From positions 3,286,001 through 3,350,000 of the forward strand of contig NZ_CP104003.1 of assembly GCF_025231485.1 (NCBI RefSeq): a stretch of 64,000 bases of DNA, in the 5' to 3' direction. A program made the translations under genes and the position numbers. This DNA comes from Salinirubellus salinus (GTDB lineage: Archaea; Halobacteriota; Halobacteria; Halobacteriales; Haloarculaceae). Shown here one piece after another: positions 36,061-40,358 of the stretch (position 1 is the stretch's first letter; each line of letters begins with the position of its first letter). Below the pieces are notes generated by a model. The model worked only from the letters and a program-made list of their open reading frames with translations, did not search any database and was not told the origin of the DNA.

Positions 36061-37398
36061 CTACGCCGGTGTCCGCACGTCGCGCAGGTCCGCCCGCGTC
36101 GGGGCGTTCACCACCGTCACCGTCCGGCCCTCCAGTTCGACCCGGAAGGCGTCGGCGTAGCTCCCCTCGTCTATCACGTAGACGCCGTCGCGCACCTCGC
36201 GAGCGTCCCTCGACTCGAGCACCTGCCGGTAGGCCGTGTGGAACTCGCGGGCGTCGGCGGTGGTGTCCCACTCGACGCGCCAGACGTAGCCGTACTGCTC
36301 CCCGTCGTCCGTCGCCTTCCGGTAGGGGACCAGCGTGTCGCCGCCCCACCCGTCGCTCGCCTCGAAGTCGTAGCGGTACGGCGAGCGGTTCTCGTCGGGG
36401 ACGACGCCGTTGGCCCAGAGCATCGCGTAGATGGACGCCTCGCCGACCGTGTCGGCGTCCTGTTCGAGGTCGAACCGCGCCCAGCCGTTCCGGGTCCGGT
36501 CCTCGACGCGCACCTCGACCGGCTCCTCGTCCGGGTACGCCTCGGGGTGGATGACCTGCTCGGTCGAGGCGGGGAACGCCTCGTAGGCGTCGTTCACGGC
36601 CGACCAGTCGCCGCCGGCGCGCTCGCGGAGGTCGTCGACCAGCCCCGGCCCGGCCGCGTAGGGGGTGAAGATGGTGAGGAACACGCCGTCGAGCGTCCCG
36701 CCACCACCGCCGCTCGGGGGGCGCTCCAGACACTCCCACTCGCCACGACAGCGCGCGCCGTACTCGCGTTCGACGTAGTTCGCGTCGCCCTCGACGATGC
36801 CGTCGACGGCGAGCTGGGTGTCCTGCGTGTCGGGGCTGCCGCCCAGCGAGAGGTGCTGGTCCTGCAGCGCGTGGACGAGCTCGTGGGCGAGCGTCGCCCG
36901 GTCGATCGTCGGCGTCTCGGAGTCGCTGACGATGACGATCTCGTCGCGCCCCGGCGAGTAGAACCCGACCACCGACTCGGAGAAGACGGCGTCGAACCGG
37001 TCGGCGATGGACTCGTCCTCGCCGTTCAGGAACAGCGCCTCCCACACCTGCTCGTTCCACCGGTCGTACATCGACGGCTCCCCCGGCGTGTCGGTCCCGT
37101 CGCTCTGTCGGCGCTCGCGGTACTCCTCTCGGCTGATGACCTCGACGGGGACCGTCTGCTCGAACTCCAGCCCGCGTATCTCCTCGACGCGGGCCATCGT
37201 CCGGGCGACGACGGCCTCGCGCTCGGTCTCGTTCAGGCCGTCCTCGGTCGTCACCGAGAGCGGGTCGTCGTACCAGTAGCCGTCCTCCCAGCCCAGCTGG
37301 TCGTCGCCGGGGTCCTCGCGGAACCCCGGCAACAGCCCGGTACAGCCGCTCGTGACGAGGAGCAGCGCCAGCACCACCGCGGCTGCCACGCGTCTCAC
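36061..37398 (-). CDS. Hvo_1808-family surface lipoprotein, copy 3
   Basis: The 445-aa secreted protein has a hydrophobic signal ending in a lipobox (VTSGC) and an entry segment DQLGWEDGYWYDDPLSV. A zinc-protease-like helix TLAHELVHALQDQHLSL follows, in which HExxH is intact. Further matching blocks (CRGEWECLERP, STEQVIHPEAYPDEEP and a VTVVNAPT end) are shared with the two upstream copies. The start is a GTG that overlaps the stop codon of the previous gene as GTGA, so it is translationally coupled. Proteolytic activity is inferred from the motif only. Confidence 0.85.
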   Translation of the reverse strand: MRRVAAAVVLALLLVTSGCTGLLPGFREDPGDDQLGWEDGYWYDDPLSVTTEDGLNETEREAVVARTMARVEEIRGLEFEQTVPVEVISREEYRERRQSDGTDTPGEPSMYDRWNEQVWEALFLNGEDESIADRFDAVFSESVVGFYSPGRDEIVIVSDSETPTIDRATLAHELVHALQDQHLSLGGSPDTQDTQLAVDGIVEGDANYVEREYGARCRGEWECLERPPSGGGGGTLDGVFLTIFTPYAAGPGLVDDLRERAGGDWSAVNDAYEAFPASTEQVIHPEAYPDEEPVEVRVEDRTRNGWARFDLEQDADTVGEASIYAMLWANGVVPDENRSPYRYDFEASDGWGGDTLVPYRKATDDGEQYGYVWRVEWDTTADAREFHTAYRQVLESRDAREVRDGVYVIDEGSYADAFRVELEGRTVTVVNAPTRADLRDVRTPA

Positions 37399-38768
37399 TC
37401 GCCGCCCACCTCCGAGAGCGCCGCCACGTCGGGGGCGTTCACCACGGTCACGGTGTCCCCGTCGAGCGTCACCCGGAAGGCGTCGGCGAACGGGCCGTCG
37501 GGCACGACGTAGGTCCGCCCGCCACGACGCTCGGCGTCGAGGCGCAGCCGGAGCATCCGGGTGTACCCCTCGTGGAACTCCGCGGCCTCCGCGGGGGAGT
37601 CCCAGACCAGCCGCCAGACGTACGCCGACTCGTTCGTCTCGGCGTGCCGGTAGGCGACGAGACGGTCGTTCCCCCACCCGGCAGAGAGGCGGTGGTCGTA
37701 GTTGGTCCGGATGGCGTCGTCCGGCCGTGGGACGAACCGCTGCTTCCAGAACATCACGTGTACCTGCGCCTCGCCGAGCGTGTCGTTCCCGACGGCCTGC
37801 CAGTCGGCCGTCGAGCGGTCCTCGACGCGCAGGTTCGTCGGGTCGTCCTCTGGGTACGCATCGGGGTGGATGACCTGCTCGGTGGAGGTCGGGACGTCCC
37901 CGAACGCCTCGTTCACGGCGTCCCAGCCGCCGTCGGAGCGGTCGCGGAGCGTCGCGACGAACTGCGGCCCCTCGATGTACGGTTGAATCAGCGTGAGGTA
38001 GACGCCGGGGTTCCGGGCGATGGCGCCGGCGGGCGGGGCGCCGCCGCTCGGCCGGTCGATACAGTTCCAGTCCACGCCACAGCGGGCCTGGTACTCGCGC
38101 TCGACGGTGACGGCGTCGCCCTCGACGAGTCCTTGCCCGGCCAGTCGCGCGTCGCTGGTCGGCGCCCGGTACGAGAGGGTCAACTGCTGGTCCTGCAGGG
38201 CGTGGACGAGTTCGTGGGCCAGCGTCCCGCGGCTCACCTGTGGGGTGGGCGAGTCGCTCACGAGGACGATCCCCTCGCCGGGCGAGTAGTAGCCGACGAC
38301 GCCCGACCCGGTGAGTTCCGAGAGCACCTCGTCCGTGGTCCGGTCCTCGCCGACGAGGAACAGCGCCTCGTAGGCCTGCTCGGCGACCGGGTCGGTCCCG
38401 TCGCTCTCGAAGACACCGCGCTCGCGGTACGCCTCGCGGCTGACGACCTCGACGGGGACCGGCTCCTCGAACTCCAGCCCGCGTATCAGTTCGACGCGAG
38501 CCATCGCGCGGGCGACGACGGCCTCACGTTCGCTCTCGTTCAGGCCGTCCGTCGCGTTCACCGCGAGCGTGGCGTTCGCGTCGTAGCCAGCCTCCCAGCC
38601 GAGGCGGTCGGGGTCGGGCGTCGGGGACGGGGTCCCGGCATCGTCTGTCGGCGTGGTGCCGGGTGTCACCGGTCCGGTCGTGTCCGTCCCGACCCCCTGG
38701 TACCCGACGCTACAGCCGGCGAGGAGGAGCAATCCGACGAGCGCCAACGTGGCCGGCCACCGGCGCAC
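37395..38768 (-). CDS. Hvo_1808-family surface lipoprotein, copy 2
   Basis: The 457-aa lipoprotein has signal LALVGLLLLAGC and a Thr/Pro/Asp linker of about 35 residues. The family core starts at DRLGWEAGYDANATLAVN, with TLAHELVHALQDQQLTL in the middle (HExxH intact), a CGVDWNCIDRP pair of Cys and the STEQVIHPDAYPEDDP block. It ends in NAPDVAALSEVGGE. It lies 3 bp after copy 1 and overlaps copy 3, so the three genes form one transcription unit. Most likely the product of a local tandem duplication. Confidence 0.86.
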   Translation of the reverse strand: MRRWPATLALVGLLLLAGCSVGYQGVGTDTTGPVTPGTTPTDDAGTPSPTPDPDRLGWEAGYDANATLAVNATDGLNESEREAVVARAMARVELIRGLEFEEPVPVEVVSREAYRERGVFESDGTDPVAEQAYEALFLVGEDRTTDEVLSELTGSGVVGYYSPGEGIVLVSDSPTPQVSRGTLAHELVHALQDQQLTLSYRAPTSDARLAGQGLVEGDAVTVEREYQARCGVDWNCIDRPSGGAPPAGAIARNPGVYLTLIQPYIEGPQFVATLRDRSDGGWDAVNEAFGDVPTSTEQVIHPDAYPEDDPTNLRVEDRSTADWQAVGNDTLGEAQVHVMFWKQRFVPRPDDAIRTNYDHRLSAGWGNDRLVAYRHAETNESAYVWRLVWDSPAEAAEFHEGYTRMLRLRLDAERRGGRTYVVPDGPFADAFRVTLDGDTVTVVNAPDVAALSEVGGE

Positions 38769-38771
38769 GGC

Positions 38772-40358
38772 TCAGTTCCCCGCGCTCGGTGGCTCGTAGT
38801 CGGCGTACACGTCGCCGAGGTCCGACTCACTCGGCGCGTTCACGATGGTGACGGTGTCGCCCTCGACCTCGATGTAGAAGGCGTCCTGGAACGGGCCACG
38901 GGTCACCTCCCAGTGGTTCGGCGAGCCGACGCGCTCGCCGCCCCAGTGGCTCAGCAGGTCGCGGTAGCCGGCGGCGAACTCCTCGGCCTCTGCGGGGGAG
39001 TCCCAGACGCTCCGCCAGACGTACGCCGTCTCGTTGTCGTCGCCTGGCGTGTCGTAGATGTGTAGCCGGTCACCGTCCCAGCCGTCCGCGTAGTCGATGG
39101 CGTAGTTCAGGGGGTCCGTGCTGTTCACCTGGCCGCCCTCGAGGTTGAGGAACTCGTCCGGCTCGACCACGCGCGAGCGGTTCGCCGAGTCGTAGAGCGT
39201 GTAGGCGAACATCGCCACCATCCCCGACTGGCCGAACGAGGCGTAGGCCGGCCGCGTCTGCGAGGGTCGCGGGGCGTCGGGCCGCACGCGCTCCCAGTCG
39301 CCGCTGTTCGAGTCGGTCAGCGAGACGTTCGTCGGGGCGTCCTCGCCGTACTTCTCGGGGTGGATGACCTGCTCGGCGGAGGCCGGCGGCGCGTCGTACA
39401 TCGCGTTCACGGCGTCCCAGCCGCCGCGGTTCTCGTGGTAGCCGACGAAGCCGGGCCCGTCGGCGTACGGGAAGTAGTTGAGGATGTAGACGCCGAAGTG
39501 GAGGTCACCGCCGCCGCCGCTCCCCTCGCTCGGGACGGAGAGGCAGTCCCACTCGACCCCGCAGCGCTCCTGGTAGCGAAGTTCGACGTTCCGGGCGTCG
39601 CCCTCGATGAGACCGTTGTACGCGTTGTACACCTCGCGGGTGGGCCGGTCGTAGCGCGAGATGTCGAACTGCTGGTCCTGCAGGGCGTGGACGAGTTCGT
39701 GGCCGAGGGTCAACTCGTCGTTGAGCACGGGCTGGTCCGACTCCGAGACGACGACGATGGTGTCGTTCGCGGGTGAGTAGAAGCCGAGCACGTTCGAGCC
39801 GCGGTTCGTGTTCTGGACCGCCAGCGAGTCCTGTCGCTCGCCGATGAGGAACAGGGTCTCGAACTTCACGTTGTCGAAGGTGCGGAACGACTCGGTGTAG
39901 TTCGCGCCGCCGTCGACGTACTGCTCGCGGTACGTCGAGCGGTTGATGACGGTGACCGGCACCGTCTCCTCGAACTCGAGTTGTCGGATGTGCTCGACGC
40001 GAGCCATCGCGCGGCCGACGACGGCCGACAGCTCGGACTCGTTCAGCCCGTCGGTCCCGTTCACGGACAGGGTCTCGTTGTACCAGTAGCCGTCCTCCCA
40101 GCCCAGCCGGTCGGTCGGCGGGTCCGCGAGGTCGGACTGCATCGTCGCGTTCGGTGCGGCCGTCGGCGTCGACGCGGGCGTCGCGGTCGTCGTCCCGCCG
40201 CCGGTCGTCGTGGCGGTCGGCGTGTCCGTGGCGGGCGTCGCTGTCTGTCCCGGGGTGGAGGCGGGTGGGGGCGTGGGCGTGTCGCCCTGCTGGAGCCCGA
40301 CGCTACACCCGGCGAGGACGAGCATCAGGGCGAGGGCGACGGCCGCGAGGGGTCGCAT
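38772..40358 (-). CDS. Hvo_1808-family surface lipoprotein, copy 1
   Basis: The longest of the three (528 aa) has a signal with lipobox LVLAGC and a Pro/Thr-rich linker (PTPPPASTPGQTAT…), so the domain stands away from the membrane. The family core has LTLGHELVHALQDQQFD (HExxH present), CGVEWDCLSVP and ASAEQVIHPEKYGEDAP. It starts with the ATG at 40358; a longer reading adds an Arg-rich stretch. The promoter is in the 102 bp before the divergent DUF5810 gene. Copies 2 and 3 share its motif order but have diverged in the linkers. Confidence 0.86.
   Translation of the reverse strand: MRPLAAVALALMLVLAGCSVGLQQGDTPTPPPASTPGQTATPATDTPTATTTGGGTTTATPASTPTAAPNATMQSDLADPPTDRLGWEDGYWYNETLSVNGTDGLNESELSAVVGRAMARVEHIRQLEFEETVPVTVINRSTYREQYVDGGANYTESFRTFDNVKFETLFLIGERQDSLAVQNTNRGSNVLGFYSPANDTIVVVSESDQPVLNDELTLGHELVHALQDQQFDISRYDRPTREVYNAYNGLIEGDARNVELRYQERCGVEWDCLSVPSEGSGGGGDLHFGVYILNYFPYADGPGFVGYHENRGGWDAVNAMYDAPPASAEQVIHPEKYGEDAPTNVSLTDSNSGDWERVRPDAPRPSQTRPAYASFGQSGMVAMFAYTLYDSANRSRVVEPDEFLNLEGGQVNSTDPLNYAIDYADGWDGDRLHIYDTPGDDNETAYVWRSVWDSPAEAEEFAAGYRDLLSHWGGERVGSPNHWEVTRGPFQDAFYIEVEGDTVTIVNAPSESDLGDVYADYEPPSAGN

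Follow-up and report, generated by a model that had tools for sequence, protein, structure and literature searches.

Three consecutive minus-strand genes within the window, i.e., the 64,000-nucleotide stretch of Salinirubellus salinus contig NZ_CP104003.1 that was analyzed, probably encode metallohydrolases, most likely peptidases, that sit outside the cytoplasm on a lipid anchor and have an N-terminal gluzincin-type catalytic domain. Family membership, residues invariant across an even sample of the family, confident structural models, the list of fold matches, and dN/dS values below 1 argue for this assignment, as do the recurrence of HELxHALQDQ and EGDA in a Chloroflexota lipoprotein and the processing and cell association of Hvo_1808 described in the available text of PMC2945643. 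Z scores in the common range, Foldseek E values above 0.001, a DUF6782 match below its cut-off, and the replacement of the first His in some relatives argue against it. The family is known and uncharacterized; its near-universal spread in the genomes sampled, domain anatomy, paralogue lines, His-to-Gln switch, and salvage-gene neighborhood are new. It is found in nearly every sampled haloarchaeon and is probably surface-exposed. A predicted fold, a candidate site for the metal, the two paralogue lines, and the natural His-to-Gln switch with its partner residues make it a testable enzyme system, from which it may be learned how such a site comes to take a different metal.

Gene Organization and Family Membership

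The first gene of the tandem, P0003 (38772–40358, minus strand), has an ATG start and encodes a 528-residue Hvo_1808-family lipoprotein of the upstream type with an intact His at the first ligand position (H form). It is followed by two downstream-type paralogues, both with GTG starts: P0002 (37395–38768, minus strand; 457 residues) and P0001 (36061–37398, minus strand; 445 residues). The 5′ end of P0003 at 40358 is valid if translation starts at the ATG directly before the lipobox signal sequence; the mechanical open reading frame extends further upstream. P0003 and P0002 are joined by TGA-GCC-GTG, i.e., a 3-bp gap, and the end of P0002 shares GTGA with the start of P0001, a spacing that suggests a single transcription unit. 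In a three-way alignment, P0001 shares 53% identity with P0002 and 45% with P0003, and the N-terminal linkers of the three proteins differ in length.

All three proteins match nearly the whole of NCBIfam model NF038145 (Hvo_1808_fam; 432 positions), with scores of 518, 470.5, and 565.8 bits, i.e., two to three times the curated threshold (200 bits). None of the features compared sets them apart from this family; the model's name gives no function. Judged by eye, a lipobox Cys follows the signal sequence in P0003 (VLAGC, Cys at 40305–40307, minus strand), P0002 (LLAGC, 38712–38714, minus strand), and P0001 (VTSGC, 37342–37344, minus strand). By analogy with Hvo_1808, the three proteins may be lipid-anchored. 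According to the available text of PMC2945643, Hvo_1808 is made as a Sec-type precursor, undergoes processing, and is found mainly with the cells. The same text reports that its C19S variant, which lacks the lipobox Cys, is less abundant but still processed and cell-associated (PMC2945643). This counts against the lipid anchor as a proven trait of the family. Our literature search found this report on Hvo_1808 itself and nothing on the Hvo_1808 family or DUF6782; the available portions of PMC8305020 and PMC4378016 likewise hold nothing on the family.

The motif HELVH is present in P0003 (residues 220–224; 39687–39701, minus strand), P0002 (residues 185–189; 38202–38216, minus strand), and P0001 (residues 172–176; 36871–36885, minus strand). 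Since HExxH arose in only 56 of 6000 shuffled copies, its occurrence in register in three proteins is not due to chance. In each protein, an EGD motif lies 26–27 residues past the second His of HELVHALQDQ, and from sequence and family conservation its Glu is a candidate for the third ligand of the metal: Glu252 of P0003 (EGDA; 39603–39605, minus strand), Glu216 of P0002 (38121–38123, minus strand), and Glu203 of P0001 (36790–36792, minus strand). A Cys pair is located further downstream (217/223 in P0001, 230/236 in P0002, and 266/272 in P0003). Thus, the sequence-only reading, which had described three Hvo_1808-family members in tandem with a 3-bp gap and then a GTGA overlap, an intact HExxH in each, a common motif order including HELVHALQDQ and the Cys pair, and divergent linkers, is borne out on all of these points. 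The HExxH region also aligns with Pfam PF20573 (DUF6782, a putative metallopeptidase family), but all three scores (16.6, 23.2, and 13.2 bits) fall short of the gathering cut-off (27 bits), and no Pfam M1, M4, or M9 model was listed for any of the three proteins.

Predicted Structure and Candidate Metal Site

The AlphaFold2 models are confident both for P0001 (residues 28–445; pLDDT 95.4, pTM 0.93) and for the N-terminal part of P0003 (pLDDT 92.5, pTM 0.91). The defining trait of gluzincins is HExxH on a helix, with a further Glu ligand downstream on a helix that follows. Indeed, the motif is found in all three proteins, and in both models HELVH is contained in one confident helix and the Glu of EG in the next. 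The HExxH residues are therefore not apart in the models; their separation was an outcome that the sequence-only reading had named as fatal to its proposal.

Structure comparison by VIA-align of the N-terminal part of P0001 gave as its top match 3cmn, a putative hydrolase of Chloroflexus aurantiacus with a novel fold (Z 9.4, rmsd 4.9, 204 aligned residues), together with aminopeptidase N (2dqm; Z 7.7, rmsd 3.7, 152 aligned), collagenase H (4ar1; Z 6.8, rmsd 4.5, 158 aligned), and thermolysin (1kei; Z 5.7, rmsd 5.7, 187 aligned); ACE gave a Z of 5.8. For the P0003 domain alone, the best match was 4ar1 (Z 7.7, rmsd 4.8, 158 aligned), and nearly all of the matches listed belong to metallopeptidases of the M1, M9, M2, M3, M4, or M32 type. 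Gluzincins fill these lists, but their Z scores are mostly 5–8; values under 8 are in the range that the structure tool calls common, and 3cmn alone exceeds it. With Foldseek, no match of either model reached an E value of 0.001. With scores this modest, we assign a gluzincin-like fold tentatively, from how consistently such peptidases recur in the lists and from the motif. Sequence searches for a solved relative with single proteins gave nothing significant, nor did profile searches, whose best match was IrrE (E 0.09). The 3cmn stretch aligned by profile contains SLIEG; 3cmn shows 16% identity, and its profile match is not significant (E 0.41).

The tandem proteins resemble gluzincins (M1, M4, M9, and others) in the fold matches and in HExxH with a downstream Glu, but differ from them in lacking a match to the M1, M4, and M9 Pfam models and in an extra C-terminal domain. 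In P0001, this domain (model residues 265–418; 36064–36525, minus strand) is similar in structure comparison to the mycobacterial ectodomains of PknH (Z 7.1) and TiME (6.8), and to TM1622 (6.5) and RseB (5.7). In the catalytic domain, His172, His176, and Glu203 of P0001 would be the ligands of a single metal ion, probably zinc, with water activation falling to Glu173. The PknH/TiME-like domain probably binds a substrate or a partner. The lipoboxes, HExxH, the candidate third Glu ligand, and the gluzincin-like fold taken together make surface-anchored peptidases, as first suggested from the sequence, the best-supported reading. The variable first His described below weakens that suggestion.

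Distribution of the Family

A family match was found in 390 of 391 genomes sampled from the class Halobacteria, in every case above the cut-off. One genome, G129, had none. Detailed counts were made on an even sample of 54 genomes, listed in full, with 83 members scoring above 200 bits, the three window proteins included; four weak relatives at or under 200 bits were left out of this number, and five short fragments were removed from one row set before counting. Counted by eye, tandems are present in 24 of the 54 genomes, and three genes in a row in two, the window genome and G047. Many of the 54 genomes also list weak relatives similar to a distant 455-residue lipoprotein paralogue (G000:C1:830632-831351; L004:1162-2529, minus strand), which carries HEYVH and VVEGAATYV and scores 86 bits against NF038145, below the cut-off.

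Outside the Halobacteria, a lipoprotein encoded on a Chloroflexota plasmid (WP_341472089, L104) contains HELTHALQDQ, LIEGDA, and the later motifs at low overall identity. It is one of four matches among plasmid records, the other three being haloarchaeal. Weaker relatives are carried by two bacterial bins. In bacterial sister pairs (L048:3128-6104 and L049:600-3552), one copy has GEIAK replacing HExxH, and in L048 the neighbor of this copy has HELIH. The search of phage records gave no match, and by that search none of the viral contigs encodes a relative. The genomes of L048, L049, L006, and L042 gave no DUF6782 match, and our search found no relative with a measured activity.

Two Paralogue Lines

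The paralogue lines were read from two trees, a first one of 139 rows with the motif columns omitted and an even-sample tree of 85 rows with bacterial outgroups. In both, P0001 and P0002 fall into one clade (69 and 38 rows, respectively; SH-aLRT 99), and P0003 is placed among the remaining rows, outside this clade. HExxH is retained in every row of the downstream-type clade (38/38 in the even-sample tree). In the tandems that were read, the leading gene is of P0003's type. This upstream type does not form a single clade once the tree is rooted, and the root depends on long outgroup branches. The tandem unit would go back to two paralogues, one of each type, with the downstream type represented by two genes in the window genome.

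His-to-Gln Switch at the First Ligand

Of the 83 even-sample members, 69 have His at the first ligand position and 14 have Gln; none of the Gln forms falls within the downstream-type clade. HExxH had been cited as a metalloprotease hallmark; it is present in the three window proteins, but the 14 Gln forms show that it is no constant hallmark of the family. In contrast to the first ligand, Glu173, His176, Gln179, Glu203, Gly204, and Tyr247 are invariant in all 83 members, Gln forms included. A DNA pattern for the Q motif matched 23 of 145 genomes and 13 of 59 genera. The His/Gln label requires 3 changes on the even-sample tree and 8 on each of two larger trees, one of them the 139-row tree. Gln appears to be derived, since both bacterial outgroups have His, and returns to His are possible.

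Among 195 non-redundant rows (219 aligned rows less those that were repeated, short, or without His or Gln at the site), those with Gln have Phe or Tyr at position 175 in 42 of 44 cases and Gly at position 206 in 38 of 44, whereas those with His have Ala at 206 in 143 of 151. Both positions were picked after viewing the alignment, so these coupling figures are post hoc. In independent pairs on starred branches, position 175 changed in the same direction in 5–6 of 6 pairs and never in the opposite one (p 0.03–0.06); position 206 changed in the same direction in 3–5 of 6, which is not significant. The dN/dS values are 0.14–0.36 in six Q pairs and 0.18–0.50 in seven H pairs, the window genes included, and therefore below 1 in all 13 pairs tested. 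Upstream-type copies have switched to QExxH repeatedly with no sign of decay. Simple decay of the first ligand was rejected as an explanation, because the archaeal members examined have only His or Gln and selection is kept.

The absence of relaxed selection in the Q pairs, despite Gln at the first ligand, also bears on whether these are enzymes at all. They might be non-catalytic surface binding proteins that keep the gluzincin fold as a scaffold, for metal or ligand binding or for surface-layer assembly, so that catalysis is not the selected function. The bacterial sister pair with GEIAK in one copy is consistent with such a role, but Glu173 and His176 are retained in all 83 even-sample members, even in the Q forms, and the downstream-type clade keeps HExxH without exception; we regard this explanation as rather unlikely and retain metallopeptidases as the preferred one.

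A natural QEXXH metalloproteinase with a preference for copper, Volvox VMP3, is cited in the available text of PMC7717551. As in the Q-form relatives, and unlike in the window genes, Gln replaces the first His of VMP3; its motif, QEXXHXXGXXH, is however of the metzincin type, and the protein is algal. VMP3 thus offers, by analogy, a functional precedent for QEXXH and no evidence for copper in the haloarchaeal family, and a zinc/copper paralogue pair is an unproven reading of the H and Q forms. A broader version of the metallopeptidase reading, which we consider distinctly unlikely in its entirety, holds that the metal site can differ between the two lines of these near-universal haloarchaeal surface enzymes: HExxH would be of the zinc type, and QExxH, found in several lineages, would be re-tuned by coupled changes for another metal (e.g., copper), with the site switching both ways. 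The window would then hold three H-form copies, and the old place of the family among salvage genes would stem from a part played in acquiring nutrients.

Genomic Neighborhood

Neighbors were counted by direct tblastn. Of the 56 even-sample loci (L187–L242), 44 have a divergent upstream gene for an isochorismatase-type cysteine hydrolase and 45 a downstream nicotinate phosphoribosyltransferase gene (named by its NCBIfam match); both flank the family gene in 41, and a thioesterase gene lies further upstream in 11. The 42 named loci gave a similar picture: hydrolase 33, phosphoribosyltransferase 33, both 30, and thioesterase 17. The nearest solved structures of the hydrolase are, in order, an N-carbamoylsarcosine amidase-related protein, a cysteine hydrolase, and a nicotinamidase entry of the Pyrococcus type. 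With amidases of several types among the hydrolase's near matches, "nicotinamidase-like" is only a guess.

This arrangement would fit non-peptide metallohydrolases tied to pyridine-nucleotide salvage, which would supply the flanking hydrolase and phosphoribosyltransferase with a nicotinamide or nicotinate precursor set free outside the cell. Such a role is quite improbable: a shared neighborhood is no proof of shared function, and the hydrolase is not akin to nicotinamidase alone. Moreover, the flanking by salvage genes has been lost in the window genome, where the tandem is about 50 kb from the best match to the hydrolase and far from the phosphoribosyltransferase, and both neighbors are also missing from its near relatives L006–L008 (two Haloglomus and one metagenome bin), yet the family genes persist. 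The genes next to the window tandem are not common to the other loci compared, except for one partial match in L046. At two further haloarchaeal loci (L014:9113-10357 and L013:9011-10138), another lipoprotein lies downstream, with a weak archaemetzincin-like match of 19 bits, far below the cut-off.
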